Assembly: GCA_030765845.1 (NCBI GenBank)
Contig: JAVCDJ010000263.1
Coordinates: forward strand, 1-47,737
Direction: 5' to 3'
DNA from: Candidatus Stygibacter australis
GTDB lineage: Bacteria; Cloacimonadota; Cloacimonadia; Cloacimonadales; TCS61
DNA length: 47,737 bases
The notes under the pieces were generated by a model that was given only the letters and a program-made list of their open reading frames with translations, did not search any database and had not been told where the DNA came from. A program made the position numbers and the translations under genes. The stretch's first letter is position 1, and each line of letters starts with the position of its first letter. Below are positions 3,001 to 23,067 of this stretch, piece by piece.

Positions 3001-3380
3001 TTGATCTCTGCCGGGGCACCCGGTCCTTCAAGTTTAAGCCGTACATCACTTACCACATCTTTGTGAACCATAATACTGATTGTGCTATTATTCTCATCGA
3101 TAATAAATTCGCCAATATCGAGGGTTTCACATCCAGCCCAGGGCTGTCCTGCCTGTAAAGCGGTAAATTGACCCACTGTAGCTGAAGTATTGATACCTGA
3201 GACATCAGGATTAGCAATTATTTCAATGGGGGGATTACTGGCATTTTCAAATGCTGTCCATGTCCAATCTGCTCCATAACCACCAACTTCAAAATCTACT
3301 GGTGCATTCTGGGCATAAATTACAGCATTCATCGCCATGACGAAAACAATGATCATAAATAACGCTGTTTTGTTTTTCAT
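1..3380 (-). CDS. Large secreted multi-module carbohydrate-binding protein with dockerin domain (3' end outside window)
   Basis: This open frame starts at 3380 behind a strong AGGAGGAAAA site and stays open to the window edge (about 1126 codons seen). Modules in order: a signal peptide (about residues 1-24, MKNKTALFMIIVF...), a beta-sandwich module beginning NAPVDFEVGGYGADWTW, then three related modules starting DVISVFSDSYDDLAGT / DVISIYSDSYDDLVGT / HVISLYSNAYENVAVD. These resemble the carbohydrate-binding modules attached to marine GH16 laminarinases. Two cadherin-like beta-sandwich domains (ATLIDLQIDGETV, ATLSDLQVDGITV) lie between them. A type-I dockerin follows at 630-818, with two calcium-loop repeats GDVTGDWSVDAFDA and GDVDGNEAVEAYDA. 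A second copy of the first module then begins and is cut off. No catalytic domain is visible, so binding or scaffolding of beta-glucan is inferred. It is the last gene of the GH16-transporter-GH30-GH17 operon; its ATG overlaps the GH17 stop as ATGA. Confidence 0.85.
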   Translation of the reverse strand, partial: MKNKTALFMIIVFVMAMNAVIYAQNAPVDFEVGGYGADWTWTAFENASNPPIEIIANPDVSGINTSATVGQFTALQAGQPWAGCETLDIGEFIIDENNSTISIMVHKDVVSDVRLKLEGPGAPAEINSTNTITGEWEEIIYDFSGAIGNTYNKFVFFPDFDMAGRLQDNIIYYDNITFSEQIAGAEPQVAAPAPTAEPGDVISVFSDSYDDLAGTDFNPPWGQSTIVSTQEIGGNATLKYANFNYQGTQFSAAQDLSLMEFVHIDLWTADATVVMFTPISAPPGEFLLPLAPLEQETWNSIDIPLANFINVPMASIFQLKFDGQQGVTPSNIYLDNIYFYKLPEGVETDATLIDLQIDGETVAGFDPLTLNYNIELPTGTVIVPVVTAETNNPEATYVINEAAMLPGTTEVVVTSANEMNVITYNVNFFFPTPAPQTAAPDPTQSANDVISIYSDSYDDLVGTDFNPNWGQSTVVTFEEIDGNMMLMYDNFNYQGTGFAGAQDFSGMDYLHIDMWTPDATVVMFTPISASTGENLLPLEPIMTATWNSYDIPLVNFTGLSMADIIQFKFDGQQGVNPSTIYLDNIYFYSAFVPGGDATLSDLQVDGITVDGFMPETMDYWVELPAGTMEVPVVTATTTDPLASYVINDAEMLPGNTEVIVTAEDGTTTLTYNVNFTVADAVPEIAAPTPEIDAEHVISLYSNAYENVAVDTWSAGWDQADLEDIQIAGNDTKLYTNLAFAGIEFTSQTIDASGMTNFHMDIWTPDDTSAPSVFRVKLVDFGADGVWGGDDVEHELTFDETVMESEMWVSLDIPLSEFTGLVTTGHLAQLIISGDPNTIYMDNVYFYDEGPYWIYGDVTGDWSVDAFDAANMLQYAVQLDPIGAPLPWTWQLIAGDVDGNEAVEAYDAALVLQYSVDMIEVFPVEEREIDSPQGSVDIEIDNNEIIIKAAGELYSLQMTSEGSAIEFGTPVIKEGILNAVNPEVFSIALASAEELTGEILRIPYKTVAKSSNMELILSINGITKRYEFSPEGNSENTRELNAPIDFEEGGYGADWTWTVFENETNPPLEILANPDASGINTSATVAKFTALQAGQPWAGCESQHGSDIGEFSFDETNSTVKVMVWKP

Positions 3381-4501
3381 TTTTCCTCCTTAAGGAATTG
3401 TTTATTGGTTTTAGCTTTATGCTTTAGATAATTTATAAATGATACTTTGGGAGTGCGGTCTTCATAAAAAACTCCCCAGTTCTTCTCTATTTCAGTTGCT
3501 CCTGATGCTTCACCGCCACCTTTCCAGGGTTCATCAAAAGCTTCGAATAAAAATGTAGTTACATGATTCTTCATAATCCATTCATCAAGTTGGATCAGAA
3601 ATTTCTCCTGAGCCTGCAAACTTACTGCTCCCTTGATCAAAGAACCCTGTTCTCCAGGTCCCTTTTTATCTGGATTATAAATAGTCGCCCAGCCAATCTC
3701 TCCCAAAACCACTTGTTTGCTCTTATGGAAAGCACTTATTTCATTATAAGTCTTATCCAGCCAGGGGATAGATTCATCGAGGGTTTTACCGTTCCAGAGT
3801 GGATAGATATGAGTTATAATAAAATCAATTTCATCTGCGATAGTTTTGCTCTCTTCTTTATTCCAAAAATTATAGTCATCTGCTGTTGTTACTGGAATTT
3901 TGGTGTAGAGCCTCAGTACCCTGATATATCTGATCAGATCATTACTGTCCATTTTATGACCAGACCAGAATACCTGCGTTTCATTACCTGCATTTACAGC
4001 AGCAATAATATGTGGATATTTATCAGCAAGCTCAAGACAGCGGAGTGTATTTGTGATATTAGCTTTCTTTGCTGCTGGATCATTATCTTCATTCACCAGC
4101 CAGATTCCAAGTATCACTCTTATATGAAGTTCTTTTTCCTTGATCACCTGCAAAATTCGTTCAGTATCATCATCAGCATTATATACTCTGATCAAATTCC
4201 AGTATTGCGATATTATAGTTAAGTCCTTAAATATCTCTTCACTTGATGGTCCTTTTGCTCCTGGAGCCTGTCCCTTTCTATAGCAGCCATAAGAAACTGC
4301 CTTCCCGATCCATTGATTTTCCAGATAGGGTTTAAAAGCTCTTTCAGCAAAAGGAACTAATTTTTCGATTACTACTTCATTTTCCAACCTTTCACGGATT
4401 GATGATATTGATAGTACCGGCTGATTATTATCATCAATTTGAGATACTAACGGACTCATGATGATAAATATTAATACTGATAGGATTATTCTTTTTTTCA
4501 T
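3377..4501 (-). CDS. GH17-like beta-1,3-glucanase / glucanosyltransferase
   Basis: This 374-residue secreted glycoside hydrolase has an N-terminal hydrophobic signal (MKKRIILSVLIFIIMSPLVS) followed by a single TIM-barrel domain. The barrel carries the two hallmarks of clan GH-A family 17: the acid/base region VNAGNE (Glu174) and the nucleophile region LGEIGWAT (Glu268). The stretch GKAVSYGCYRKGQAPGAKGP near residue 66 matches the start of bacterial and fungal GH17 exo-acting enzymes. The expected activity is hydrolysis or transglycosylation of beta-1,3-glucan such as laminarin; the exact mode cannot be read from the sequence. Start and stop both overlap the neighbouring genes by four bases (ATGA), which indicates translational coupling with the upstream GH30 and downstream dockerin protein. 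Confidence 0.85.
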   Translation of the reverse strand: MKKRIILSVLIFIIMSPLVSQIDDNNQPVLSISSIRERLENEVVIEKLVPFAERAFKPYLENQWIGKAVSYGCYRKGQAPGAKGPSSEEIFKDLTIISQYWNLIRVYNADDDTERILQVIKEKELHIRVILGIWLVNEDNDPAAKKANITNTLRCLELADKYPHIIAAVNAGNETQVFWSGHKMDSNDLIRYIRVLRLYTKIPVTTADDYNFWNKEESKTIADEIDFIITHIYPLWNGKTLDESIPWLDKTYNEISAFHKSKQVVLGEIGWATIYNPDKKGPGEQGSLIKGAVSLQAQEKFLIQLDEWIMKNHVTTFLFEAFDEPWKGGGEASGATEIEKNWGVFYEDRTPKVSFINYLKHKAKTNKQFLKEEK

Positions 4502-6174
4502 AATTGAACTCTCACTGTTTGAACTGCATTTGCCAGAATTTCTATTTCAGCAAATTGCTCTCCGATCTGCAACTTATAATTGATCTTATTATCGGCTGTA
4601 TTCAATACCTGAATGCTTAACACATTATCTGAATTAAGGGTAGCACAGGTATGCAGATCATCATTTCCAAGATCCACAAGCTGCTTTTGGGTTTTTACTG
4701 CAATGTCACCAGGACGAATAGTTTTGCTGAATTGAGCTAATACATAAAATATTGGAGTATAATAAACATTCTGTGCAGCAGTATCTATCATGATAGGAGC
4801 TCCACAGAAATTGCCAACATGATTTGGTCCACCATCCTTATCCAGAACCACATTCCAGTCTATCCAGCCATTAGCCCAGTGATCAAGGCTGACGATTATA
4901 TTACGGGCATAACGATGAACCGGCACATACATAGGATGATCTTCCACCTTCACACCCTGCCAGGTTACTGAATATGCCCAGTCAGTAGCACTTTTACTCC
5001 ACCAGAAATCATCATTATCAAACCAGTTGCTCTCAGTGTAACCCTCAGGATCAGTAACTCCTCCAGGAGCATCTTTTCCCAGGTCATCAATGCAACCTTC
5101 CGTATGGATGATCGATTGATCAGGATATTGGGCATGAACCCTGTCAAACACATCTTCATAGACTTTATTAGTGCTTTCATACCAGTGAACTGCTGCTCCA
5201 TCCACATATTGTGAAGTCTCCTGATCAGCAAAGATCACATTTGCCCATTCCTCAAGTCCATCTCTATTCTGGTCGAATATGAATAGCTTTGTATTATCAT
5301 AGCCAGCAGTCTGCAATTTAGGTCCCAGAAAGTTTTTGATAAATTCATTCTGTGATTCTGGTGTAAAATTCATGCTTTCCCATTGCCCGTTATTGCCATG
5401 CGGCTCATTCACTGGCGTTAGACCCCAGATATCCACACCTTCAGCCTTATATACATTCAGGTATTTCACCAGGTAATCTGCATAAGTGGAGATATATTCT
5501 TTTTTTAGAGATCCTCCCGTACCTTGCCAGTTATTCTCAGGAGCTCCAGGGATATACCACTGCTCAATATCTTTCATCCAGTATGGTGCTGTCCAGGCAG
5601 AAGAAACAATTCTCAGTTCTCCATCCTGTTGAGCCTGCTTAATTGCTAATGCCTCTTTGATCATAGGCAAAAGATCATAGGATTCATCCTTGATACCAGG
5701 ATATTCTACCTGCTTAAATCCTTTAGTGTCCTCAGATATATTGAAGTTTTCCAGTTCTGCATCTGCTTTAGCCGCATAGGAATACTTGCCTTTCACTGTA
5801 AAATCACAGGCACCAATATGCGTTCTTGTCAAAGTAAAATCAGCTCCCTTCTCACCAAATATCTTTTCCATCACTTCTCGCCTGCGCTCTTTTTCCAAAT
5901 GAGCCAAAACGAAGGCTGATGATTCTGTAAACGAGGTTCCGATACCGTCAATCGTCTGTTTTATGCTGTCAGGATAAATGCTGATTACTATTCCTTCAGC
6001 CTTTCCAGCTTTGAATGTGACATTTTCCATTTCATTCAATTTATCACCTTCTGCTGAAGTGAGCAGAATTTCGGACGTGGAGCCAAGTTTATTACTTTTA
6101 TTGGCTCCACAACCGAAAAATAATATTAAAAGAATAATGAAAACTAGTGTTTTAAATATATTCTTTCGCATCAT
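4498..6174 (-). CDS. GH30-family lipoprotein, probable beta-1,6-glucanase
   Basis: This 558-residue protein begins with a lipoprotein signal ending LILFFGCGAN (lipidated Cys22). The catalytic barrel has the GH30 pattern: IDGIGTSFTESSAF near residue 75 (the usual GFGGA.TD..A position), WTAPYWMK at 194, acid/base in LTPVNEP (Glu257) and nucleophile in IIHTEGC (Glu359). A short C-terminal beta domain ends at 558. Family GH30 includes beta-1,6-glucanases and glucosylceramidases; in an operon with GH16 and GH17 enzymes, removal of beta-1,6 branches from laminarin is the natural reading. Two consecutive ATG codons open the gene, and either could be used. It follows the transporter by six bases and overlaps the GH17 gene by four. 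Confidence 0.88.
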   Translation of the reverse strand: MMRKNIFKTLVFIILLILFFGCGANKSNKLGSTSEILLTSAEGDKLNEMENVTFKAGKAEGIVISIYPDSIKQTIDGIGTSFTESSAFVLAHLEKERRREVMEKIFGEKGADFTLTRTHIGACDFTVKGKYSYAAKADAELENFNISEDTKGFKQVEYPGIKDESYDLLPMIKEALAIKQAQQDGELRIVSSAWTAPYWMKDIEQWYIPGAPENNWQGTGGSLKKEYISTYADYLVKYLNVYKAEGVDIWGLTPVNEPHGNNGQWESMNFTPESQNEFIKNFLGPKLQTAGYDNTKLFIFDQNRDGLEEWANVIFADQETSQYVDGAAVHWYESTNKVYEDVFDRVHAQYPDQSIIHTEGCIDDLGKDAPGGVTDPEGYTESNWFDNDDFWWSKSATDWAYSVTWQGVKVEDHPMYVPVHRYARNIIVSLDHWANGWIDWNVVLDKDGGPNHVGNFCGAPIMIDTAAQNVYYTPIFYVLAQFSKTIRPGDIAVKTQKQLVDLGNDDLHTCATLNSDNVLSIQVLNTADNKINYKLQIGEQFAEIEILANAVQTVRVQL

Positions 6175-6180
6175 AATATC

Positions 6181-7647
6181 CTAAGATTTTTCTAAATTAA
6201 GCTTTTCATCTTCAATTTTTTGAGCATGACGTTTTTCCAGTTCAACACGAACTTCATTTGCACGTTTTTCAGTTAAATCATAATTACGCATCAGTAAAAT
6301 AGCGATAGTCGTACCCAGTATTGGAAATCCGGAATAAAAAATTCTCAATCCTGTTATCGCGCCCTCAGTTTGCGTAGCAGCACTGGCATCGAATCCTACT
6401 ACTGACATAATAATACCAGTTAATAATCCTGCGATAGCGAAGCCAAACTTGACCATCCACCAATAAATAGCACCAAATACCCCCTCGCGACGTTTTCCTG
6501 AATTTAACTCATCCAGATCCATCACATCTGCAGTCATTGACATCATCAAGGTAAATAAACTCCCAATCCCAAAGGAAAAGAAAGGTAGCGCAAAGATAAA
6601 CATGTAAGGTTTTCCCGGAACAAAGAGAAACCACAACAAGAAATAGCCGAAGATTGAGATGCTTTGTGAGAGAATAAATGCTTTCTTTTTTCCAAGTAAC
6701 TTAGACATGCGAGCAACAGTAGGAATCACTAAAAAGGTAGTTACCAATGAAGCCAGGCTGCCAAAAAGTGTAGGCCAAATACCAGCAGCCTCTGCATTTC
6801 CACTAAATAAATGCCAAACTATAATAAAAAATGAAAACGCCGCAATGGTGTTAAATGCATTAAAAATAAAAAATGTGGAGACACATAATTTTACAAACTG
6901 AGGGATCCTAAACGCTTCCTTAAAGTTTGAAAAGATTTCTAATAAACTGCTCCCGATTGCATTTAGATTAAGGGGGGAGTAGTTTTCTCCGACTGTCGAT
7001 TTACTTTTTAGGAATATTGCTGGAACCATAGCAAGCAACATACAGATGATCCCCACCCATATCGCAAGTGTCCTTGTAGCTATATCCGCCGATGGAAACC
7101 AGCCCTTGTTGTACATGATGACCCAAAACCAGGGAGCAATAACCCAGGCCCACTGCCCGATCCATTGGGCTACGGCCATAATGCTTGTACGTTCGTGAAA
7201 ATCATTGCTCATTTCATAGCCCATTGCAACGTAAGGCACACTAAAAATGGTAAGACCTAGATAGAAGACAAACGAAAAGAGAAGGAAATAAATAAAGTTG
7301 TACTCGACTCCATTCACACGATATAATTGCCACATAACAATAAACGCAATTCCCATGATGATCGAACCAATGAAGATGTACTGTCTTCGTCTGCCCCATT
7401 TCGATTTAGTGTTATCCGAAATATAACCCATGATGGGATCCGTAATAGCGTCAAATACTCTTGGCAGGAAAAATAACATTCCCCACATCCAACCCGGGAA
7501 ACCCAAATCCTGGACCAAGACAACCATAAATATTCCCAGGACCGCAGGAAACATTTGATTGGCTAACATACCAATGCCAAAAGCAACTTTCTGTCCGAAT
7601 GGAACTACATGTCTGCTATTTGTTGATTCAACTTTTTCTTTTATCAT
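6181..7647 (-). CDS. GPH-family sugar:cation symporter (MFS superfamily)
   Basis: This 488-residue protein has about 12 hydrophobic membrane segments and the glycoside-pentoside-hexuronide symporter signature near its start: FGQKVAFGIGMLANQMFP, then PRVFDAITDPIMGYISDNTKSKWGRRRQYIF in the first cytoplasmic loop. A second GPH-type motif, MTADVMDLDELNSGKRREG, lies near residue 375. It should import mono- or oligosaccharides across the inner membrane, driven by Na+ or H+. Lying between GH16 and GH30 genes, its substrate is probably glucose, laminaribiose or gentiobiose-like oligosaccharides released outside the membrane. The start is supported by AAGAAGG upstream. No SusC/SusD or ABC sugar importer accompanies it. 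Confidence 0.9.
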   Translation of the reverse strand: MIKEKVESTNSRHVVPFGQKVAFGIGMLANQMFPAVLGIFMVVLVQDLGFPGWMWGMLFFLPRVFDAITDPIMGYISDNTKSKWGRRRQYIFIGSIIMGIAFIVMWQLYRVNGVEYNFIYFLLFSFVFYLGLTIFSVPYVAMGYEMSNDFHERTSIMAVAQWIGQWAWVIAPWFWVIMYNKGWFPSADIATRTLAIWVGIICMLLAMVPAIFLKSKSTVGENYSPLNLNAIGSSLLEIFSNFKEAFRIPQFVKLCVSTFFIFNAFNTIAAFSFFIIVWHLFSGNAEAAGIWPTLFGSLASLVTTFLVIPTVARMSKLLGKKKAFILSQSISIFGYFLLWFLFVPGKPYMFIFALPFFSFGIGSLFTLMMSMTADVMDLDELNSGKRREGVFGAIYWWMVKFGFAIAGLLTGIIMSVVGFDASAATQTEGAITGLRIFYSGFPILGTTIAILLMRNYDLTEKRANEVRVELEKRHAQKIEDEKLNLEKS

Positions 7648-7662
7648 ATTTTACCTTCTTTA

Positions 7663-9852
7663 TTATTCTTCTAAATAGATATCATCAAAATAGAGCATTC
7701 CAGTAAGCAGATTATTGCTGCTGTCCTGGGGATTCCATAAACCTAAATATTTGATATCAGTGAGATCTGGTGTACTAAAATCACTTAACGGGATTTCATA
7801 TCTCATCCAGTCTCCTGTTACGATAGGGGTATAATAAGTAATATTGATCTCTGTTTGTCCTGTTGAGGTATCTTCAAATTTAATGCCCAGCTTATCCAAA
7901 GTTGGCATAGCTGATTTATTGATATTTATTATCAAGGTATTATAAGCAGAAATATCCTGACCGGAATTACCAAAATCAAAAGCTATTCCACCCCAGCCCA
8001 TACTGCCCGTCTGAAAATCTGCTGATAGTACATAGGTGCCGTCCACTGGAGCAACTGCTGTGCTTTCTTCATCTGGTTCCGTGGGATTACCACTCCAGTC
8101 AGCACTATTCCAGATCTGCTGATATACCAGCATCTGATCGTTATGAGATTCTGTGTAGATACCAATAACATCTCCAGTTGAGCCGCTTTCAATTGCAGCC
8201 GTGTCAGTTTTCATTATTCCATTACCATCAGTATATGTAGCTGTTAATGAGCCTCCGGGATTAATTGCGATTGTGTCTGTAGCATCATCTGTAGTACCAA
8301 AATTCAATGTCCCTGTTCCCATGCCCACTGCATCAAGAACAACATCAAGACTGATCGTCTCTGTCCCGTTATCTACATCTACGGAAACTGTATTTAACGC
8401 AGCAGCCAGATCATTCACTGTGATCACTGCACCAGTAGCATCAATTGCATAGCTGTCTGCATCAAAGGAAACACTGCTCGGAACTGTTCCGCCACCAGCC
8501 CAGTAAATATCATCAAGGCCAAAATCACATTGTGTGCCATTTTGTTCTAAAATGATAAATTCGTAAGCCAGTATCTCCAGATCTACATTCCCCTTAACTT
8601 CCTCTACAGGTATGGTTGCCTGTCCCCATTCACCATCTCTAACCAGACCAAAGGCAGTTTCATTTGCCGGGAAGGTCACATAATTCTCGATTCCATCTGT
8701 ATCATTTATTCCTATTTTAAAGGTCACATCTGCCGGTATTTTGATCATGAATTTTATATTACCGTAGGCAAATCCTGAAAGATCTACCGGTAATGTAGAA
8801 CTGATTCCACCTCCAAACCAGCCGACTCCAGTTGTTGACCATGATATCACATTATCACCCTCATAAGGAGGCATCGTTCCTCCAGAAAGGGTATTTTCCC
8901 AAACATATATCTCAGCATTTACACCAACTTCCAAACCAGCATCCACTGGGGTTTCATCTGTAAATATTCCATAAGTACCAATATCTGGACCCTCAGCCTG
9001 AAATACTCGTACCCAGTCCACATACATATTCTGGTTCCACTGGGTCGCCTCATCTGGTGATCCACCCAGATTGCCACCAACCGCTACATTAAATATTAAG
9101 AAGAATTTCTTCATAAATTCATCCATTGAACCTGGATCTATTAATTTAACAAAATAGGTAATATCATCTATCTTCCCGATCACTCTCTGTTCATCCCACA
9201 CCACCTCAAATATATGATAATCATCAGTGAGTGAATAGCTGAATTCTCGTGTTGCCCCATCAGAATCATGATATTGTCCTTCGTCATTCCACCAATGAAG
9301 CGTGAACATGGTTGTATTATCATTATGGTATAAGGGGCTCATCTCCATGATGTCTATCTCACCGCACTGGGGCCAGCCTATTGAATCAAAACTATCGCCA
9401 AGCATCCAGAAGGCAGGCCACATCCCTGCTCCACTGGGTGGCTTGACCCGAGCTTGCACCTTACCATATTTGAATGAAAATTTGTCCTTTGTGTTTACCC
9501 TTGCAGAAGTTACGGATCCATCACGTTTGCCTGGTTCAGAATAATTTACCGAATCCCAGGCTGCTGTTATCACCATATTGCCATCTTCTATTTTTACGTT
9601 TTCGGGAGAGTCCGTGTAAAGCTGCCACTCATCATTACCCCAGCCGTCTCCACCATATCCTGTGTCATATCCCCATTTAGTTGCGTCAAGACTACTGCCT
9701 GTCTGGTCAAATTCATCAAACCAGACCATTTCATAATTCTCATTATCTACTTCATCAATAATTGTATCTGGCTCCGTAACCTGATCACAACTGCTTAAAA
9801 TAAATAAAAAAAATGCTGCCATTAGAATTAAACTGAAAATCTTATTTATCAT
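7663..9852 (-). CDS. GH16 lipoprotein, laminarinase (endo-beta-1,3-glucanase) with two accessory modules
   Basis: I place the start at 9852, not at the in-frame ATG at 9900, because AGGGAGGT lies just upstream and the protein then opens with a clean lipoprotein signal (MINKIFSLILMAAFFLFILS, Cys about 23). This gives 729 residues. The GH16 domain spans about 37-290 and contains WPAFWMLG followed by catalytic GEIDIMEM (Glu165, Asp167, Glu170). A beta-sandwich module (about 295-460, YGIFTDETPVDAGLEVG...) is almost the same as one in the second GH16 of this locus. A short Ig-like stretch follows, then a second binding-like module to the C-terminus. It should cut beta-1,3-glucan at the cell surface. 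It is the first gene of the leftward operon and has a perfect palindromic operator 60 bases upstream. Confidence 0.9.
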   Translation of the reverse strand: MINKIFSLILMAAFFLFILSSCDQVTEPDTIIDEVDNENYEMVWFDEFDQTGSSLDATKWGYDTGYGGDGWGNDEWQLYTDSPENVKIEDGNMVITAAWDSVNYSEPGKRDGSVTSARVNTKDKFSFKYGKVQARVKPPSGAGMWPAFWMLGDSFDSIGWPQCGEIDIMEMSPLYHNDNTTMFTLHWWNDEGQYHDSDGATREFSYSLTDDYHIFEVVWDEQRVIGKIDDITYFVKLIDPGSMDEFMKKFFLIFNVAVGGNLGGSPDEATQWNQNMYVDWVRVFQAEGPDIGTYGIFTDETPVDAGLEVGVNAEIYVWENTLSGGTMPPYEGDNVISWSTTGVGWFGGGISSTLPVDLSGFAYGNIKFMIKIPADVTFKIGINDTDGIENYVTFPANETAFGLVRDGEWGQATIPVEEVKGNVDLEILAYEFIILEQNGTQCDFGLDDIYWAGGGTVPSSVSFDADSYAIDATGAVITVNDLAAALNTVSVDVDNGTETISLDVVLDAVGMGTGTLNFGTTDDATDTIAINPGGSLTATYTDGNGIMKTDTAAIESGSTGDVIGIYTESHNDQMLVYQQIWNSADWSGNPTEPDEESTAVAPVDGTYVLSADFQTGSMGWGGIAFDFGNSGQDISAYNTLIININKSAMPTLDKLGIKFEDTSTGQTEINITYYTPIVTGDWMRYEIPLSDFSTPDLTDIKYLGLWNPQDSSNNLLTGMLYFDDIYLEE

Positions 9853-9911
9853 CCAAAAACCTCCCTTGTCATTATTCTTTTTTCCCATTATTCCCATCAC
9901 ACAATCATTTG

Positions 9912-10171: not shown

Positions 10172-11227
10172 ATGACTGAGCATATTCCTAAATATCTTAA
10201 AGTAAAAAATAAAATCAAAGATGATATCAAAGACGGTAAAATAGTCGATAAATTGCCTGGTGAAAGGGCTCTTGCGAAAGAATTTGGTGTTGCCTATATG
10301 ACAGTGAGAAAAGCTCTTATGGAATTGCAGGAAGAAGGTATTCTGCATAGAACCACCACCAAGGGGACATTTGTAAGTAATGGTAAGATGAGCCCCAAGG
10401 TAACCAAAAATATCGGATTCTTCCTTGATGATAAGATCGATGAAGGAATTTCCAGTCCCTATTATTCACTTATTTTCAAAGCTCTTGAAAAAGCAGCAAA
10501 AAAGGCTGGTTATAATATCATGATTTATTCAGATTCTGATGAGATGAATCCCATTAATGATCAGAAAAAAATTGATGGCAGTATCATCTGTTGTTTCCCC
10601 CGTATTGAATATAAAATCCAGGAACTCAAAAAATTCATGCCAATTGTCCTCCTGGACAATATTGCTTCAGATAAATCCATCGCCTCAGTAACGATAGATA
10701 ATTTCAACAGTGTCTTTGAATCCACAAAATACCTGGCATCTCAGGGACATGAGCGGATTGGTTTTATCTCCGGTTTGATGAATTCAGATATTTGCAAAGA
10801 AAGACTTCATGGCTATCTAAGTGCTTTAAATAATGAGAATCTGCACGTTGACAAATCCCTGGTTTATAAAGGAGATTATTCCTATGGATCAGGTGAAAAA
10901 GCTGCCATGTACTTCTTATCATTAAAAAATCCACCTACTGCCATTTTATGCGCTAATGACTCCATGGCTATTGGGGCAATGAAAGTGATCCAGGAATTAG
11001 GGCTCAGTATCCCTAAAGACATAAGTGTTGTGGGTTTCGATGATATTGAGGTCGCCTCCAGAGTATTCCCCACCCTCACCACAAATGCTGCTCCAGTAGA
11101 AGATATTGCCCAAAAATCCCTTAAATTACTGGTCTCTGCTATTAATGGACATGATATAGATTACCAGCATATCATCCTCCCGGCAAAGCTCATCCTCAGA
11201 GATTCCTGCTCCACAATTAAAAAATAA
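10172..11227 (+). CDS. GntR/LacI-type (AraR-like) transcriptional regulator of the beta-glucan locus
   Basis: The 351-residue protein has a GntR-type winged helix at about 1-70 (KYLKVKNKIKDDIKDGKI, LPGERALAKEFGVAYMTVRKAL, then the wing LHRTTTKGTFV). A LacI/periplasmic-binding-protein-like sensor follows from about 80 to 345 (IGFFLDDKIDEG, GHERIGFISG, PTAILCANDSMAIGAMKV, DISVVGFDDIEVA). This arrangement is that of AraR of Bacillus, in which a sugar bound to the C-terminal domain releases the repressor from DNA. The ligand is unknown; a beta-glucan oligosaccharide is inferred from its position between the two glucan operons. The ribosome site GAGGAG precedes the start. Three copies of a 16-bp palindrome in the flanking promoters are its likely targets. 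Confidence 0.88.
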   Translation: MTEHIPKYLKVKNKIKDDIKDGKIVDKLPGERALAKEFGVAYMTVRKALMELQEEGILHRTTTKGTFVSNGKMSPKVTKNIGFFLDDKIDEGISSPYYSLIFKALEKAAKKAGYNIMIYSDSDEMNPINDQKKIDGSIICCFPRIEYKIQELKKFMPIVLLDNIASDKSIASVTIDNFNSVFESTKYLASQGHERIGFISGLMNSDICKERLHGYLSALNNENLHVDKSLVYKGDYSYGSGEKAAMYFLSLKNPPTAILCANDSMAIGAMKVIQELGLSIPKDISVVGFDDIEVASRVFPTLTTNAAPVEDIAQKSLKLLVSAINGHDIDYQHIILPAKLILRDSCSTIKK

Positions 11228-11544: not shown

Positions 11545-14500
11545 ATGAATGAATTAGTAAGAGCAGTACAGGAGAAGAGAATTCTTGTCTTACTGGCAGT
11601 GCTCCAGATTTTGTTTTTCACAGCGACCGTTTTTGCCCAGTCACCTGAAAAAGTGACAACCTATCAAGATGATAATGGTTGGAAACTTCTGGTAGATGGA
11701 CAGGATTATTTCGTAAAAGGTGTAGTTTGGGGTTATACTCCAATCAATGAGAATTATGCCTACAATTTATATGCAAACACCGACGAGCAAATTGAGAAAA
11801 TTCTTGATTATGAATGCAATTTAATGAAGGAAGCGGGTATCAATACAATACGTTGTTTTGGGCTGATTCCTCCCCGCTGGGTAAGCTATATTTATAATAA
11901 GCATGGCATCATGACGATCGTGAACCCTCTTATGGGAAGATATGGTTATAATGTAGGTGGGGTATGGACTGCTCAGACAAATTATTCTGATAAACTCACC
12001 CGCCAGACCTTGAAGCATGACATTGTGGAACTGGTGAAGAAGTATAAGGATACTCCCGGAGTTATCATGTATGCCCTGGGAAATGAGAGTAATTATGGAC
12101 TGGAGTGGTCAAGCTTTGAAATCGAGAACCTTCCGGTTGGAGAGCGTCATAAAGAAAAAGCAAAATCACTTTACAGCTTATTTAATGAGATAATTGCTGC
12201 TGGTAAAGAAGTGGATACTAATCATCCATTCATGATTGTAAATGGTGACATCCAGTATCTTGATCTGATAGTTGAATTCTGTCCAGACCTTGATATATTA
12301 GGCGTTAATGCCTATCGTGGAGTAAGTTTTACTAATATGTGGAGCAGAGTTAATAAGGAACTCGGTTTACCAATACTTTTAACAGAATTTGGTTCTGATG
12401 CCTTTAATGCCGTTACATTTAAGGAAGATCAGGAAGGTCAGGCTAATATAATCAAGGGTAACTGGCAGGAAATCTATAATAAGAGCTATGACAAAAATGA
12501 AGAAGGCAATGCCCTGGGTGGCTGTGTGTTTGAATGGCGCGATGAGTGGTGGAAATATAAGCAAACCGAAAACCTGACAGTTCATGACAAGCATGCCTCC
12601 TGGAGTAATGGTGGTTATTCCTTTGATTTTGTGCAGGGCAAAAATAATATGAATGAAGAATGGTATGGTATCTGCCGTCTGGGTGGTCCTAATGATGATA
12701 GAGTTTACCAGGCAGAACCAAGAATGGCTTATGATGTGCTTTCCGAGATCTGGGCAATTGATAATTTTAAAGTAGATAAAGCAGAGATGAACGCTGAAAT
12801 TGATAATATCGATATGAATCTCCATAAGATTGGCAGTGGGGTGAATCTTTTGAATAGTCAAATTGCCAAACGCAGCATTATTAGACTGACTGGGGGAAAC
12901 CTTAATGGTGAAATGGCATTTAGTGGAAAATCCCTGGAAGTTGAAAATAATGGCAAAAATGGAGTGGCTTTTTCTAATGGAGAAATGATCAATCTGGAAT
13001 TTGAATTTCAGCCTACAAATCAGATTTCAGGAAACTTTGCTTTAAATATCCTGGGCAATGTTGTAAATAAACCCCTTGAACAATATTATGGAAAGCGTGG
13101 GCTTTCCTATGTGACTTTAACTACAGAGATTGATGAAACCGGGATGGAAGTAACAACTTCCAAGGAAGTTACAGATCCTGAAAGAGTGGAGATCTATAAT
13201 TTTGACGTACTTTACAGTACGGATGCTTTTGATATGAGAGCTTTTTATCATGTACCTCGTTATCATTGGGGATATAAGGGAGATATTTACGGACTGCTTT
13301 ATGAAGCCACTGATATGGATGGAATGGATATCTGGAATGCCAAAGCACCTTTTGGAATAGAATATATGGGCAAGAAGTCTCTTGAAGGTCTCACAGTTTT
13401 GGCAGGACCTGAGGTGTACTGGGGAGCCAATCCTAAAGCTATAGCTAAATATGATTTTGGCATCAAAGGATTTGATTTTACCTTTATCCATTCAGAAGAT
13501 TTTTCGCGTGCCGATGCTTCATCGACCGCTACAGAATCAACTGAACGGGCTACACGTCAAACAGCACTTTCGATCAAGACCACTATTATTCCGAGGACTA
13601 CATTGGAATTTGGTTACCTAATGGCAGGTACAGAAAAGCTGGATGAAGAATATGATTATTATGAAGCTGGAAATATTTACCAGGATAAAATAGACCTTAA
13701 GGATACCCAGGGAGCAAGGGCCAAAATCACTTATAATACTGGATTTGGGCTATTAGATGTCTCTGCAAATTATGCAGGTCTGGTAGCTGATGGAGGAAGT
13801 CCTTTAAGGGAATTTGATACCACTATTCCTTATTCTACATTGGGTAACAAAATGGAATTTGTTGGTGGCATGCTGATACCGATAGGAAATGTGTGGCTGT
13901 TACCTCGGGGATTATACAGAAAAAATCTGATTGATTCCAATCCAATAATAGATCCTTACATTGAAGGCTCACAGCTCTATCCGGGCATTAGCCCTCGTAA
14001 TCGTGATGATGATCCATTTGCCGTGCTGGATAATAGAGAAGCCGTTTCCGGAGAATTCTTTATCACTTATGATCCCACTCCAGCCAGTGATTTTTATGCC
14101 TGGGATGCTGATAAAAGAGAAGATGCCGGATTTGCTTTCAGCATAGGTGGAAATGTCACCAGTTATAAAAAAGATGCTGATGCTGATATGTTCTTTTACC
14201 AGGAAGGCAATACAAATGCTTCCTTTGGTGTGGGAATGCCGGCAGAAGATGTCTGGCTGGCAAAAGGCAGATTTGTCATGAACCCCAATCCTAATTTTAA
14301 ATTGATAGTTAATCTGGAGGGAGGAAAGCAGCAGTCAACTGGTAATCCTGATGGTGATGCAGCAGAATACCTGTCTCTGGACGCCAAAATGATATTTAAT
14401 AAGAAATATTATCTTGAGGGTTATGCCAAACAAGATGCCTGGGGTCCCTATGACTGGTATCGTCAATTCAATATCACCTATCCCCAGCAATTCAAGCTTG

Positions 14501-14667
14501 ATTATTCTATCCTGATCGATAATATACTTGATGATGTGCTTTCCAGTAAAATTGGTATCAATTCCATCTTTAGAACTCTTGATGAGAATTCACCGACAAA
14601 TGAAGGGATTGGTGAAGATAATGATTACGAATTCCAGGCTGGTATTTATTACAGCATTGAATTTTAA
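11545..14667 (+). CDS. TIM-barrel glycosidase (GH2/clan A-like) fused to a C-terminal outer-membrane beta-barrel-like domain
   Basis: This 1040-residue protein has a hydrophobic signal at about 11-31 (cleavage after VFAQ likely). The catalytic TIM-barrel (about 35-425) begins GWKLLVDGQDYFVKGVVWGY, has INTIRCFG near 99, the acid/base motif YALGNESNYG (Glu181) and the nucleophile motif LLTEFGSDAF (Glu281). These are the landmarks of clan GH-A enzymes such as the GH2 catalytic domain; the exact family is not certain. The remaining 600 residues alternate polar and aromatic/hydrophobic residues in repeated short strands and end in EFQAGIYYSIEF, with a C-terminal Phe as in outer-membrane barrels. 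A hydrolase-porin fusion is inferred. It heads the rightward operon with a lipoprotein and a GH16, has GGGGGAAA upstream, and an operator in its promoter. Confidence 0.8.
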   Translation: MNELVRAVQEKRILVLLAVLQILFFTATVFAQSPEKVTTYQDDNGWKLLVDGQDYFVKGVVWGYTPINENYAYNLYANTDEQIEKILDYECNLMKEAGINTIRCFGLIPPRWVSYIYNKHGIMTIVNPLMGRYGYNVGGVWTAQTNYSDKLTRQTLKHDIVELVKKYKDTPGVIMYALGNESNYGLEWSSFEIENLPVGERHKEKAKSLYSLFNEIIAAGKEVDTNHPFMIVNGDIQYLDLIVEFCPDLDILGVNAYRGVSFTNMWSRVNKELGLPILLTEFGSDAFNAVTFKEDQEGQANIIKGNWQEIYNKSYDKNEEGNALGGCVFEWRDEWWKYKQTENLTVHDKHASWSNGGYSFDFVQGKNNMNEEWYGICRLGGPNDDRVYQAEPRMAYDVLSEIWAIDNFKVDKAEMNAEIDNIDMNLHKIGSGVNLLNSQIAKRSIIRLTGGNLNGEMAFSGKSLEVENNGKNGVAFSNGEMINLEFEFQPTNQISGNFALNILGNVVNKPLEQYYGKRGLSYVTLTTEIDETGMEVTTSKEVTDPERVEIYNFDVLYSTDAFDMRAFYHVPRYHWGYKGDIYGLLYEATDMDGMDIWNAKAPFGIEYMGKKSLEGLTVLAGPEVYWGANPKAIAKYDFGIKGFDFTFIHSEDFSRADASSTATESTERATRQTALSIKTTIIPRTTLEFGYLMAGTEKLDEEYDYYEAGNIYQDKIDLKDTQGARAKITYNTGFGLLDVSANYAGLVADGGSPLREFDTTIPYSTLGNKMEFVGGMLIPIGNVWLLPRGLYRKNLIDSNPIIDPYIEGSQLYPGISPRNRDDDPFAVLDNREAVSGEFFITYDPTPASDFYAWDADKREDAGFAFSIGGNVTSYKKDADADMFFYQEGNTNASFGVGMPAEDVWLAKGRFVMNPNPNFKLIVNLEGGKQQSTGNPDGDAAEYLSLDAKMIFNKKYYLEGYAKQDAWGPYDWYRQFNITYPQQFKLDYSILIDNILDDVLSSKIGINSIFRTLDENSPTNEGIGEDNDYEFQAGIYYSIEF

Positions 14668-15320: not shown

Positions 15321-17138
15321 ATGAATTTAGGGAGAAAACGGGCAGTTCAGCTAATATTTCTGCTGATCATCACGATGTCAGTTAATCTGTTAACTGCTGA
15401 AATAGGCGATATTATCTGGGAAGAGAATTTTGATAACCTGGATAACTGGCTGATTGAAACCGGTAACGGTTCTTGGGGCTGGGGTAATGGAGAACTGGAA
15501 TATTACCATGGAGATAATGTAGAAATAGCTGAAATCCCTGGTGATCCGGGTAATAATGCCCTCCATATCACAGCCCGACAGGAATCGGGTCCTGGGATAG
15601 TAGATCAATGGGGCAATCCGCTTAATTATACTTCCGGAAAAGTGACCACAAAGTCGTTTCTATCCCTTAAATATGGTATGATAGAAACAAGGGTCAGCAT
15701 CCCTGACCTTGATGTGGGTGGCTGGCCAGCGATCTGGATGCTGGGTACAGCAAATTATAACTGGCCCCTGCGCGGTGAAATTGATCTTATGGAAATGGGG
15801 CATACCCAATCCTTCAGAGACCTGCACGATAGTCATAATGGCGGAAATGGACAGAATAATTCAACTGCCAATCAAATGGTGAGTGCAAATGCTATCTATT
15901 ATTCTGAAGATGCCGTTTCACCGGGAAATCCCTCTGGAGCAGCAAGCCTCTCCTGGGATCCGGAGGATGAATTTTGCCGTCCATATTACAGTTATGATCC
16001 ATCGCTCACTAATAGATTTCTGACCTACCGTACTTACTGGGATGAAGAAAGCCTTAGATTTACTGTGATCGATGATGAAATCGAATATGATCTATATACT
16101 GAGCCATTTGTAATTGACAGCGTTTCTGCTGAGCTTCAGCAACCTTTTTATCTGATAGCCAATCTTGCTATTGGCGGGGCGCTTACTGATGCTTATAATC
16201 TTGGTGATCCCGGCAGCGGTCTTCCTGTTTCCATGCCCTTCCCGGCGCACATGTATCTTGATTATATAAAGGTTTATCAGTGGAATGATATGGGAGAAGT
16301 ACATATTGGACCACCAGATTTTGAGGGTGGCACATTTGGTATTTTCACAGATAACACTCCCACAAATAATGAATTAGAAGCCGGAATCAGTTCCGAGATA
16401 TATGTCTGGGAAGGAACTTTGACGGAGGGAACAATCCTGCCTTATGAAGGTGAGAATGGGATTTCCTGGTCATCTACCGGAATAGGCTGGTTTGGGGCAG
16501 GGATTATGTCAATTCAGCCCGTAAATCTTTTTAATTTCGGAGAGGGAAATTTAAAGTTCATGATCAAGATCCCTGCTTCCATCGCTTTTCAAATTGGCAT
16601 TATTGATGCCTGGGGCAATCAGTCTTATGTGGAATTTCCAGCTTATCAAACCACCTATGGACTCGTTCGAAACGGAGAATGGGCTCAGGCAAGTATCCCA
16701 GTCGATGATTTGCGGGGACAATTCATTGATCTGCGTATGTTAACCTATGAGTTCGTTATCCTGGAAGTAAATGGTGCTCAGTGCGAATTTGCCCTGGATG
16801 ATATTTATTATGATGGTGGGCTTAATGATAATACAGAAGAGATCATCACCACAGTACCATCATCTTTGCAGCAGAATTATCCCAATCCCTTTAACCCTGA
16901 AACTACTATCAAGTTCACTCTGGCAAGTCAAAGTGACAGTAATGAAATATCTATTTATAACCTGAAGGGACAAAGGGTATATTCTAAAGATTTGAGCGGT
17001 TATCCTGCCGGAGAAAATCAGGTCACCTGGAAAGGAATCGCTAATAATGGCAGTCCGGTAGCTTCTGGAATATATTTCTATCAGCTAAAGGCTAATGGAA
17101 ATATCTGTGATACCAGACGGATGCTCTTGCTTAAATAA
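15321..17138 (+). CDS. Secreted GH16 beta-glucanase with accessory module and type IX-like sorting domain
   Basis: I start the gene at 15321 (MNLGRKRAVQLIFLLIITMS, a signal peptide); the upstream in-frame ATG would overlap the lipoprotein gene and spoil the signal. The 605-residue protein has a GH16 domain at about 28-330 with GWPAIWMLG and catalytic RGEIDLMEMG (Glu153, Asp155, Glu158). A beta-sandwich module (about 345-510, GTFGIFTDNTPTNNELEAG) is a close relative of the one in the lipoprotein GH16. The C-terminal sorting domain runs LQQNYPNPFNPETTIKF, YNLKGQRV, VASGIYFYQL and ends MLLLK. It should act on the same beta-1,3-glucan as the first GH16 but be exported by a type IX-like route. It is the last gene of its operon and is followed by a strong terminator. 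Confidence 0.9.
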   Translation: MNLGRKRAVQLIFLLIITMSVNLLTAEIGDIIWEENFDNLDNWLIETGNGSWGWGNGELEYYHGDNVEIAEIPGDPGNNALHITARQESGPGIVDQWGNPLNYTSGKVTTKSFLSLKYGMIETRVSIPDLDVGGWPAIWMLGTANYNWPLRGEIDLMEMGHTQSFRDLHDSHNGGNGQNNSTANQMVSANAIYYSEDAVSPGNPSGAASLSWDPEDEFCRPYYSYDPSLTNRFLTYRTYWDEESLRFTVIDDEIEYDLYTEPFVIDSVSAELQQPFYLIANLAIGGALTDAYNLGDPGSGLPVSMPFPAHMYLDYIKVYQWNDMGEVHIGPPDFEGGTFGIFTDNTPTNNELEAGISSEIYVWEGTLTEGTILPYEGENGISWSSTGIGWFGAGIMSIQPVNLFNFGEGNLKFMIKIPASIAFQIGIIDAWGNQSYVEFPAYQTTYGLVRNGEWAQASIPVDDLRGQFIDLRMLTYEFVILEVNGAQCEFALDDIYYDGGLNDNTEEIITTVPSSLQQNYPNPFNPETTIKFTLASQSDSNEISIYNLKGQRVYSKDLSGYPAGENQVTWKGIANNGSPVASGIYFYQLKANGNICDTRRMLLLK

Positions 17139-18819: not shown

Positions 18820-19223
18820 TGATTTTGCTTGACTGGGGTGAATAATAAAATAATCTCCATCGGATATGGAAATAGAAAAAAATATTGAATTTGAGCGACC
18901 GGCAATTTATGTGGTGGCAACCCCGATAGGTAATCCCTATGATATTACGCTGCGTGCTCTAAATGTTCTCTCCAGTGCTGATCTAGTGATCTGTGAAGAA
19001 CGGAAAGTGGGTTCCAGACTTTTGAGAAGATATGGCTTTAAGCAGGAAATACTGGAAGTTATTGAGCATAATGAAAAGACTATAGTTAACGAAATAATTC
19101 ATAAAATAATCTCAGAGAACCTGGCAGTAGCCCTGATCTCAGATGCTGGAACGCCTCTTTTTGCTGATCCTGGTAATACCTTGATCCCGCAGGCATATCA
19201 GAGCGGGATTCGGAACATTCCCA
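18820..19223 (+). pseudogene. Truncated second copy of rsmI
   Basis: From 18820 the sequence follows 22314 onward at a constant offset of 3494 bases, including the leader and the start codon (18866 versus 22360). The encoded 118 residues or so (IYVVATPIGNPYDITLRALN ... ALISDAGTPLFADPG) match RsmI, with scattered differences, both silent and coding. Homology stops at about 19223, after AYQSGIRNIP, where the intact gene continues IIPVPGASS. The remaining half of the methyltransferase is missing, so this copy cannot make a functional RsmI. The frame runs on to 19384 through unrelated permease sequence. It is a decayed partial duplicate, or a remnant from a related strain. Confidence 0.88.
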
Positions 19224-19402
19224 GGCCTATCGGTCCCAATTTGAAAGCAATGTATCCGGAAATCCTTGAATATACACATCTTTGTGGTGTAAATGGTTTA
19301 AGAACTCATAAAGCTATAATTGAATTCGAAGGGAATAAATTCAGTTGTGATAAAATTTTTGCAGCAGATTCAACATTCTGTTGAAGCTTTAAAATACGAA
19401 TA
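19224..19402 (+). pseudogene. Internally deleted FtsX/MacB-type permease remnant
   Basis: The residues after the rsmI fragment (IGPNLKAMYPEILEYTHLCG, then KFSCDKIFAADSTF) align with the periplasmic domain of the intact permease just downstream (VGPLLQNEMPEIEAYMRCF ... ESSMLMTDNSIF). Immediately after, in another frame, come the last residues of such a permease, SVEALKYE and a stop at 19402. The intact gene ends PVEALKYE. So the start, and the whole middle between the periplasmic domain and the C-terminus, have been lost from a former neighbouring permease gene. Confidence 0.75.
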
Positions 19403-19411
19403 GGAGAAACC

Positions 19412-21793
19412 ATGTTTAAACAAAACATTTTACAAGCTTTCAGAGTTTTAAAGAAGGATAAATTCCATTCCTTCTTGAATATCATCGGTTTGGCACTTGG
19501 TTTGTGCTGTAGTATCCTCGTACTGCTCTTCGTGCAGAATGAATTATCTTATGACATGCATCACGAAAATATCGACCGCATCTATCGTTATGGTGTGAAT
19601 ATGACCATTGGCGACAATAACAGCACACAACCAATCTGTAATGCTGCAGTAGGACCGCTTCTTCAAAATGAAATGCCGGAGATTGAAGCTTACATGCGTT
19701 GCTTTTATCCGGGACAACTACTTGTGAATGGAAATGATAAAACTCTGTATGAAAGCAGTATGTTGATGACCGACAACAGCATCTTCCAGATTTTCAGCCA
19801 CCCCTTTATTTATGGAAACCGCTCGGAAGCTTTGGAACGAGCCAATACAATTGTGCTTACGGAAAAAACCGCTAAAAAATATTTTGAAGATCAAAATCCG
19901 GTAGGAGAAGAACTGGAAATTGATAATGAGATTTATGAAATTACCGGAGTTATAGAAAATCTACCTGAAAATTCGCATCTTAAATTCTCTGCTTTGATGT
20001 CACTTAATTCTTATTTACAAACACAAAATCTGGAAGACATTTATACACCACGGGCTTTGGGTGGAAATATGATGTTCTTTACCTATTTTCTATTTTCCAA
20101 AAACTTCACTGCTGAACAATTTTCTAAAAAATTCCAGAATTTCTATAATAGAGAAATGGTAGAAAATGATCGGATTAATTACATCGCAGTTGTAGAACCT
20201 GTCGAAGACATCTATCTCAATTCTACAATTGATAAAAGATATTCGCAGGCAAATCGTCGTTTCCTGTATGGATTTGCTTCCATTGGTTTGTTCATCCTAA
20301 TTTTGGTCTGTATAAATTACGTGAACATGGCAACATCACGTGCAGGCAGTAGGGCGCGGGAAATCGGTATGAAAAAAGTTCTGGGAGCACAAAAGAAACA
20401 ACTCATTCGACAATTCCTTAGCGAAGCAGTAATTCTTTCATTCCTGGCTCTTGTCATCGGCTTTGTTTTAGCAAATCTAATTCTAATGTTAACTCCCTTC
20501 AATGAATTGATAAATAAGAGCTTGCAGATCAATTTATTGAACAATCCGATTTTGTTGGGCAGTTCATTCCTCATCACAATTTTTGTGGGATTGATCTCTG
20601 GTTTTTATCCTGCCTTTTATCTTTCTCATTTAGCACCGATCTCTTCTTTGAAAGGTTATATGAAGAAAGGAAAAGCCGGAAGCTTCTTCCGAAATGCATT
20701 GGTTTCGTTTCAATTCATTATTTCCATCACAGCTGTTATTTTAACTCTTTTTATGCACCAGCAGATCGATTTTATGCAAAGTTTTGATTTGGGATTTGAT
20801 CAAGAAAATGTATTAACAATTTCAGCTACGAACGAAGAAATTCTAAAGAATTTCAAAAATTATCGCGAAATGATCATCGATCATCACGGTGTTGTTTCAG
20901 CAGGATTTTCAGATTCTCCTATAGGAAAAGGATTTACTGGTTATGCTTTCAATTGGGAAGCTGAAAGCGGTGAGATGGAAATTCATGCTACTCGACAACT
21001 TTATGCAGATAAGAATTACTTGGAAACAATGGGCATTCCGATAGTTGCAGGACGAAATTTTACAAAAGAAAGAAACCTCGATGATCCTTCGATCGACTTT
21101 ATCGTTAATGAAGCAATGATTGAACTTTTTGGCTGGGAAAATCCAATCGGTAAAAGAAACCAATATGGTCAGGTTATCGGAGTGATGAAAGATTTCAGTT
21201 TTGCTTCTGCCAGAAATGAAATCATTCCTCTATACATTCTTCAACCTCGTAATCCGCTTGGAGTTCTTAATATCCGCTTGAAAGGAGAAAACATTTCTGA
21301 AACCATGACTTTCATTAAACAGAAATGGCAGGAATTTGCACCTGGATTTCCAATTAATTACTCATTCCTAGAGCAGGATTTGAATACAATTTATGCCAGC
21401 GATGTAATCCAGAAGAAGCTATCCAGTATCTTCACATATTTCTGTATTCTAATCTCTTGTTTTGGTTTGTTTGGATTAACTTCATATTCCACCCTCCAAC
21501 GAACTAAAGAAGTAGCGGTAAGAAAGATCCTGGGTTCCAGCGTTCTGCAGATCATCGTAACGTTGTTCAAGGGGATTTTTACAACAATAGTTGTTTCAGC
21601 AATTTTAGCAGGTCCACTGGCCTATTTTGTTTTTAGTCTTTGGCAAAAGAATTATGCCAACAAAGTTTCTGTAAATCCCCTGATTTTTGGTCTGGCTTTT
21701 CTGGGAGCACTTCTGGTTAGTTTCCTCACTTCCGCTTATCACACAATCAAAGTTGCCAACACTAATCCAGTAGAAGCTCTTAAATACGAGTAG
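19412..21793 (+). CDS. FtsX/MacB-like ABC transporter permease
   Basis: This 793-residue membrane protein has the double-FtsX layout of the MacB-related permeases common in tandem arrays in FCB bacteria. A first membrane segment near 22-42 (FLNIIGLALGLCCSILVLLF) precedes a large periplasmic domain, then three membrane segments at about 285-400 (GIGLFILILVCINYVNMATS region, with the typical SRAREIGMKKVLGAQ), a second segment and periplasmic domain at about 430-660, and three final segments ending NPVEALKYE. The second permease half again has RTKEVAVRKILGSS. Such proteins work with a separate ATPase to move lipoproteins or peptides or to act mechanically; no ATPase gene is nearby. AGGAGA precedes the start. 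It is flanked by broken relatives on both sides. Confidence 0.88.
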   Translation: MFKQNILQAFRVLKKDKFHSFLNIIGLALGLCCSILVLLFVQNELSYDMHHENIDRIYRYGVNMTIGDNNSTQPICNAAVGPLLQNEMPEIEAYMRCFYPGQLLVNGNDKTLYESSMLMTDNSIFQIFSHPFIYGNRSEALERANTIVLTEKTAKKYFEDQNPVGEELEIDNEIYEITGVIENLPENSHLKFSALMSLNSYLQTQNLEDIYTPRALGGNMMFFTYFLFSKNFTAEQFSKKFQNFYNREMVENDRINYIAVVEPVEDIYLNSTIDKRYSQANRRFLYGFASIGLFILILVCINYVNMATSRAGSRAREIGMKKVLGAQKKQLIRQFLSEAVILSFLALVIGFVLANLILMLTPFNELINKSLQINLLNNPILLGSSFLITIFVGLISGFYPAFYLSHLAPISSLKGYMKKGKAGSFFRNALVSFQFIISITAVILTLFMHQQIDFMQSFDLGFDQENVLTISATNEEILKNFKNYREMIIDHHGVVSAGFSDSPIGKGFTGYAFNWEAESGEMEIHATRQLYADKNYLETMGIPIVAGRNFTKERNLDDPSIDFIVNEAMIELFGWENPIGKRNQYGQVIGVMKDFSFASARNEIIPLYILQPRNPLGVLNIRLKGENISETMTFIKQKWQEFAPGFPINYSFLEQDLNTIYASDVIQKKLSSIFTYFCILISCFGLFGLTSYSTLQRTKEVAVRKILGSSVLQIIVTLFKGIFTTIVVSAILAGPLAYFVFSLWQKNYANKVSVNPLIFGLAFLGALLVSFLTSAYHTIKVANTNPVEALKYE

Positions 21794-22313: not shown

Positions 22314-22717
22314 TGATTTTGCTTGACTGGGGTGGATAATAAAATAATCTCCACCGGATATGGAAATAGAAAAAAATATTGAATTTGAGCGACCGGCAAT
22401 ATATGTGGTGGCTACGCCGATAGGTAATCCCGATGATATTACGCTGCGAGCTTTAAATGTTCTCTCCAGCGCGGATCTGGTGATCTGCGAAGAACGGAAA
22501 GTGGGTTCCAGGCTGTTGAGAAGATATGGCTTTAAGCAGGAAATGCTGGAAGTGAATGAGCATAATGAAAAGACTATAGTCAACGAAATAATTCATAAAA
22601 TTATCTCAGAAAATCTGGCAGTAGCCCTGATCTCAGATGCTGGTACGCCTCTTTTTGCTGATCCTGGGAATACCTTGATCCCTGTGGCATATCAGAGCGG
22701 GATCAGGATCATTCCAG
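22314..22717 (+). repeat. Right copy of the duplicated rsmI leader and 5' half
   Basis: This segment corresponds to 18820-19223 at an offset of 3494 bases with scattered substitutions. It begins within TGATTTTGCTTGACTGGGG, upstream of the start codon, so promoter and leader were duplicated too. Confidence 0.85.
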
Positions 22718-23067
22718 TACCGGGAGCATCATCAATCATGGCTGCTTTAATGGCTGCCGGGATAACTTCTGCAAGTTTTTTATATTACGGATTTTTACCA
22801 GCTAACCGTCATAGCCGTGTGGGAGCTATTCGCAAACTTCCCAATGATCTGGATATAATTATACTTGAGGCCCCTTATAGATTGAAACCGGTGCTGGCAG
22901 ATTTGAAGAAGCATTTAGGTGGTAAACGCCAGGCTGTACTTGCCTGGAAGCTTACTTATCCAGAGGAGCAGATCATTGAGAGTGATCTTGAGAATCTGGT
23001 GAAGATAGCAGAGCATCTGGGTAAAGGAGAATTTGTCCTTATTCTGAGGGCAAAGAGAAACCGATGA
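22360..23067 (+). CDS. rsmI: 16S rRNA (cytidine-1402-2'-O)-methyltransferase RsmI
   Basis: The intact 235-residue copy contains the landmarks of this SAM-dependent tetrapyrrole-methylase-fold family: YVVATPIGNPDDITLRAL at the N-terminus, ICEERKVGSRLLRRYG, ALISDAGTPLFADPG, then IPVPGASSIMAAL, FLYYGFLP and the C-terminal EAPYRLKPVLADL and EFVLIL. RsmI 2'-O-methylates C1402 of 16S rRNA in the decoding centre. It lacks the small C-terminal extension of E. coli RsmI, as many homologues do. Its stop overlaps the rarA start as ATGA, so the two are coupled. A truncated copy lies 3.5 kb upstream. Confidence 0.93.
   Translation: MEIEKNIEFERPAIYVVATPIGNPDDITLRALNVLSSADLVICEERKVGSRLLRRYGFKQEMLEVNEHNEKTIVNEIIHKIISENLAVALISDAGTPLFADPGNTLIPVAYQSGIRIIPVPGASSIMAALMAAGITSASFLYYGFLPANRHSRVGAIRKLPNDLDIIILEAPYRLKPVLADLKKHLGGKRQAVLAWKLTYPEEQIIESDLENLVKIAEHLGKGEFVLILRAKRNR

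Follow-up and report, generated by a model that had tools for sequence, protein, structure and literature searches.

Gene content of the locus

The window analyzed here, that is, the whole stretch of 47,737 nucleotides of contig JAVCDJ010000263.1 from Candidatus Stygibacter australis, contains an open reading frame with an ATG start and no internal stops upon translation that encodes a 1,040-residue protein (Table 1). A putative signal peptide, a predicted clan GH-A hydrolase, and an outer-membrane-barrel-like domain follow one another in this single polypeptide, hereafter called the fusion. Coding on the reverse strand was rejected, as the frame read there is full of stops. The signal-peptide-like stretch was recognized by eye from its basic start, hydrophobic core, and VFA-Q end, and residues 2 to 30 were modeled as a helix. 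The AlphaFold2 model, run on an alignment of 84 relatives, had a mean pLDDT of 85.9.

The genes on either side point to catabolism of beta-1,3/1,6-glucan. The GH17/GH30/MFS/GH16 run ends with a gene for a large protein carrying dockerin type I and cadherin-like segments (positions 3 to 3380, reverse strand). Farther along the window, an ADOP-type ABC permease (19412 to 21793) lies between a truncated RsmI-like methyltransferase reading frame (18866 to 19384, 172 aa) and a longer second copy (22360 to 23067, 235 aa), as if a duplication or insertion had split the methyltransferase gene.

Table 1. Positions of the fusion gene, its parts, and neighboring genes within the window
Feature	Position	Strand	Remark
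GH17-like beta-1,3-glucanase	3377..4501	-	below Pfam cut-off
GH30 enzyme	4498..6174	-	below cut-off of endo-1,6-beta-glucanase model
MFS_2 / GPH-type sugar symporter	6181..7647	-	
GH16 glucanase	7663..9900	-	divergent operon
GntR-helix/LacI-type sugar-responsive regulator	10172..11227	+	upstream of fusion
Fusion protein, 1,040 aa	11545..14667	+	signal peptide, GH-A hydrolase, outer-membrane-barrel-like domain
Signal peptide, residues 1-32	11545..11640	+	read from sequence; next domain starts at 11641
GH-A TIM-barrel domain, residues about 33-410	11641..12774	+	distant sister of GH158
Codon of Glu181	12085..12087	+	predicted acid/base, GNES motif
Codon of Glu281	12385..12387	+	predicted nucleophile, TEFG motif
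Helical linker, residues about 411-443	12775..12873	+	model helices 412-420, 424-442
Outer-membrane-barrel-like domain, residues about 444-1040	12874..14664	+	terminal Phe
Lipoprotein, 206 aa	14678..15298	+	FMGC lipobox, Cys20 invariant; 10 bp downstream of fusion
Secreted GH16-type beta-glucanase	15321..17138	+	type IX sorting tail; start probably at 15321, within an ORF open from 15255

The N-terminal domain is a distant sister of GH158

In the model, the TIM-barrel domain begins near residue 36, right behind the signal peptide, and adopts the GH-A fold with a predicted catalytic pair of glutamates at the ends of strands 4 and 7. The preliminary description had named Glu181 and Glu281 as this pair; both residues are where it placed them, within GNES and TEFG motifs, respectively, and each is at least 90% conserved in the alignment of 84 relatives. 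When the front half was compared with the PDB by Foldseek, GH158 laminarinases were the top matches (E 1e-14), followed by GH157 enzymes and glucuronidases. By sequence, GH158(Pro) was the sole solved relative with a significant match (E 1.3e-6), and its GNES and TEFG motifs line up with those of the fusion.

The GH-A TIM barrel and aligned catalytic pair are thus shared with BuGH158 and GH158(Pro), which provide the best fold match. Sequence similarity is remote, however (E 1e-6 to 1e-8), the fusion hydrolase sits on a separate branch of the tree, and GH158 enzymes lack the barrel. A true GH158 enzyme in a related locus scores 1.7e-90, compared with only a partial match of the fusion at 1.3e-6; family-level similarity does not extend over the whole catalytic domain, and membership in GH158 was rejected at the family level. 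Membership in GH2 was rejected as well: the Pfam model Glyco_hydro_2_C matched (E 1.2e-5) in the TIM barrel alone, and the jelly-roll sugar-binding and Ig-like domains that precede the TIM barrel in GH2 enzymes are missing from the fusion. The hydrolase is predicted to cleave beta-1,3-glucan of the algal type.

The C-terminal domain resembles an outer-membrane barrel

Residues 446 to 1039 were modeled almost wholly as antiparallel strands, many of them 10 to 17 residues long, joined by short turns that alternate with long loops. The DSSP string, read by itself rather than measured geometrically, suggests roughly 24 to 26 transmembrane strands; judged by which connections are short and which are long, both barrel ends would be periplasmic. 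Foldseek matched the back half to porins of the PDB, namely MOMP (E 9.7e-9), AlgE (1.1e-8), OpdK (2.5e-8), and OccAB3 (2.7e-8), all four at a probability of 1.00, with low TM-scores (0.34 to 0.37 on target, rmsd about 14 Å). No sequence similarity to AlgE, MOMP, or the OprD-type porins was found, and these porins are 18-stranded and carry no fused enzyme.

Two features of the last 600 or so residues that had been read from the sequence at the outset, strand alternation and a terminal Phe, held up among the relatives. Across 58 fusions, the 30 modeled strands of the C-domain alternated with a combined z of 5.9 relative to shuffled sequence, whereas the TIM-barrel strands showed no alternation (z = -0.7). 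The protein ends in YEFQAGIYYSIEF, and Phe is the last residue in 36 of the 40 complete relatives outside Bacteroidota, consistent with a C-terminal beta-signal with an aromatic end; Bacteroidota relatives, in contrast, end in K, Q, or N. Cysteine is almost absent from the domain.

None of the 58 C-domains scanned matched a Pfam family, and no PDB sequence matched the C-domain. This lack of a recognized barrel family, together with the low TM-scores, would be in keeping with the C-terminal half being a soluble, beta-rich carbohydrate-binding region instead of a membrane barrel. The long antiparallel strands at high pLDDT, porin matches in the range of E 1e-8, alternation, terminal Phe, and scarcity of cysteine argue otherwise, and the soluble beta-sandwich that the preliminary description had set against its own proposal appeared neither in the AlphaFold2 model nor in the Foldseek search, making a soluble region scarcely credible. 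Pfam scans of the full protein and the 58 C-domains detected no plug domain, TonB receptor barrel, or autotransporter. A classical (type Va) autotransporter was also ruled out by size, as about 600 residues and more than 20 strands compare with a 12-stranded barrel of about 300 residues.

Distribution of the fusion

The two-part architecture put forward in the preliminary description, a GH-A hydrolase joined to an outer-membrane-barrel-like domain, is well supported by AlphaFold2 and Foldseek and is kept in about 55 loci across several phyla, identified by a genome scan and a search for relatives. Carriers belong to Cloacimonadota (the group of the source organism), Gammaproteobacteria (Woeseiaceae, Thiotrichales, and others), Mariprofundus, Flavobacteriia and other Bacteroidota, a Myxococcales bin, and a Spirochaete bin labeled Brevinema. 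Several are isolates, and Flavobacterium filum, Psychroflexus gondwanensis, Thiomicrorhabdus sp. Milos-T2, and Bacteroides finegoldii are cultured carriers. The B. finegoldii copy (L125, NZ_OY725931.1), annotated at NCBI as "glycoside hydrolase family 2 TIM barrel-domain containing protein," lies with GH16 and BglX and without annotated SusC/SusD; although labeled a plasmid, its record is probably a piece of chromosome, as it includes valine-tRNA ligase and rpsA. In Mariprofundus, Thiothrix, and Thiomicrorhabdus (L028, L040, and L046), genera known as chemolithoautotrophs, the fusion occurs with GH16 and GH149, which is unexpected for users of external glucan.

A profile built from the C-domain only was run on 889 sampled genomes and matched in 17 of 125 Cloacimonadota, 4 of 369 members of the gammaproteobacterial class, and 17 of 395 members of the Bacteroidota class. 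All matches not cut by a contig end sit in open frames longer than 1,040 aa, and an intact barrel without the hydrolase was never seen in these 889 genomes. The hydrolase does exist alone, as a protein of about 420 to 445 aa, in Bacteroidota, a Neomarinimicrobiota bin, and two Chromatiales. Since the two Chromatiales proteins, which end within the linker helix, nest inside the gammaproteobacterial fusions on the hydrolase-domain tree, the barrel was most likely lost in these organisms.

A lipoprotein accompanies the barrel

The fusions are directly followed, usually at a distance of 3 to 33 bp, by a small lipoprotein gene, which the preliminary description had overlooked. Its products form a single family in Cloacimonadota, Proteobacteria, Myxococcota, and the Spirochaete bin, in which the lipobox Cys is invariant; the lipoprotein was modeled as helical (pLDDT 89), and sequence and structure searches returned no solved relative. 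The same slot in Bacteroidota is filled by an unrelated lipoprotein of 470 to 480 aa with a Big_2 segment. The flavobacterial partner showed no kinship to the first family by HMM search, and none to solved glycan-binding proteins was found.

By automatic count, a lipobox protein adjoins the fusion in 52 of 58 cases, whereas all 17 stand-alone hydrolases lack such a neighbor (Fisher p 3e-12, a value uncorrected for and inflated by kinship); the tree holds only 5 independent contrasts, and all informative ones agree (sign test, 0.06). The lipoprotein is gone from the barrel-less Chromatiales too, and three Thiotrichales fusions (L042, L044, and L046) have GH149 directly behind them and no downstream lipoprotein. 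Given the difference between fusions and stand-alone hydrolases, the lipoprotein probably goes with the barrel as part of the device, which would be a pair of pore-enzyme and lipoprotein.

Gene neighborhoods and possible transport

A GH149 beta-1,3-glucan phosphorylase, identified by NCBIfam and PDB 6hq6, is encoded in 35 of 55 fusion loci, in lineages other than that of the source organism. No GH149 match was obtained in the source genome by a search that lacked a responding positive control. Loci of other lineages also include a true GH158 a few genes away, GH3, GH1, CBM9, and genes of glucose catabolism. This context fits a role of the fusion in beta-1,3-glucan uptake.

Transport in the opposite direction, i.e., export of a self-made beta-glucan through an AlgE/PgaA-like barrel assisted by a trimming enzyme in the periplasm and by a helical lipoprotein, would accord with AlgE being among the best C-domain fold matches, with the loosely AlgK-like helical partner, and with the placement of some hosts in chemolithoautotroph genera (Thiomicrorhabdus and Mariprofundus). 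The polysaccharide synthase linked to exporters of the AlgE/PgaA type was not found, however; the neighbors scanned comprise hydrolases, GH149, carriers and a regulator of sugar type, and Entner-Doudoroff enzymes, with no glucan or polysaccharide synthase among them, which leaves export a slim chance.

Transport is supported indirectly by the pattern of TonB receptors: none was detected in 48 of 55 fusion loci or on the source contig, and one lies beside one of the two barrel-less Chromatiales loci. Many fetched loci are short, and outlying receptors would be missed. The barrel could instead merely anchor the glucanase at the outer membrane, on the surface or the periplasmic side, while sugar enters through other pores or TonB receptors. 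SusC is also encoded in seven flavobacterial fusion loci, the source genome has three TonB receptors on other contigs, and stand-alone forms of the same hydrolase occur next to SusC, all in keeping with an anchor. Yet a barrel with 600 residues and over 20 strands would be a costly anchor where a lipid would suffice, the barrel is accompanied by a conserved lipoprotein partner, and many loci have no other outer-membrane transporter within reach. We consider a purely anchoring role rather unlikely. With SusC encoded in the seven flavobacterial loci, sugar may nevertheless also enter by routes other than the fusion.

Discussion

We propose that the fusion is probably an outer-membrane hydrolase-pore for beta-1,3-glucan. 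Laminarin-type glucan would be cut outside the cell by the secreted GH16 enzyme, and the resulting oligosaccharides would enter through the C-terminal barrel, aided by the co-encoded outer-membrane lipoprotein, which may cap, gate, or feed the pore. Because both ends of outer-membrane barrels usually face the periplasm, the N-terminal GH-A domain, with its predicted fold and catalytic pair, would be located there, and beta-1,3-gluco-oligosaccharides are most likely hydrolyzed as they arrive at the periplasmic mouth of the fusion's own pore, a step that may render uptake one-way without a TonB-type plug. Judging by family, GH17, GH30, and the MFS carrier would complete the process, as would the GH149 phosphorylase in other lineages. 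The barrel would then conduct sugar, and hydrolysis and passage may be physically coupled, as the preliminary description suggested; the idea is plausible and gains a basis from the comparison of loci.

Transporter-glycosidase fusions have a precedent in FbGH17b of Formosa, an MFS transporter-GH17 fusion for which coupled cleavage and transport were proposed by the authors (PMC6246565). FbGH17b likewise unites a laminarin-degrading hydrolase and a membrane transporter in one polypeptide but differs from the present fusion in being an inner-membrane, helical MFS carrier joined to a different hydrolase family rather than an outer-membrane barrel (PMC6246565). The principle behind the new kind of uptake device suggested in the preliminary description, a transporter joined to a glycosidase, is thus not entirely new (PMC6246565). 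In the literature searched, which excluded preprints and most subscription journals, neither a glycosidase-outer-membrane-pore fusion nor the barrel nor the barrel-lipoprotein pairing was described. With SusC/SusD and other TonB-dependent transporters the fusion shares an outer-membrane barrel and a lipoprotein partner within a glycan utilization locus; however, it has no plug or TonB receptor domain, its lipoprotein is unrelated, and a catalytic domain is fused to it. There is a fair chance that the fusion represents a distinct class beyond the known enzyme-transporter fusions and barrel-lipoprotein pairs.

The gene itself may already be present in published laminarin loci. Flavobacterial loci are listed with a "GH2" gene (PMC13188888) or a "GH0" gene (PMC10108472) beside GH149, GH16, GH17, and GH30, and in the accessible portions of both papers the gene is treated as an enzyme, with the barrel domain unmentioned. 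The order of genes around it agrees with that in the flavobacterial loci that we fetched. In those of the Polaribacter and Muricauda type, the fusion is the only gene fitting the "GH2"/"GH0" slot, and the two are therefore probably the same gene. High expression of the "GH0" gene is reported from a North Sea bloom (PMC10108472). If the genes are identical, this bloom-expressed gene would encode a pore of the outer membrane that comes with its own enzyme and a partner lipoprotein.

The fullest form of our proposal, put forward tentatively, is a TonB-independent uptake machine in which a pore of about 24 to 26 strands, its own periplasmic glucanase, and a dedicated lipoprotein act together and uptake is made one-way by hydrolysis at the exit. 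If true, this would define a type of glycan importer distinct from both SusCD and plain porins, spread over several phyla and forming part of the laminarin-degrading loci of marine bloom bacteria. In the sea, laminarin ranks among the largest stocks of fresh organic carbon, and its import is commonly ascribed to SusCD or TonB receptors. The cultured carriers make the idea directly testable, and the fusion may combine digestion and import of the sugar in a single step that has so far been overlooked.
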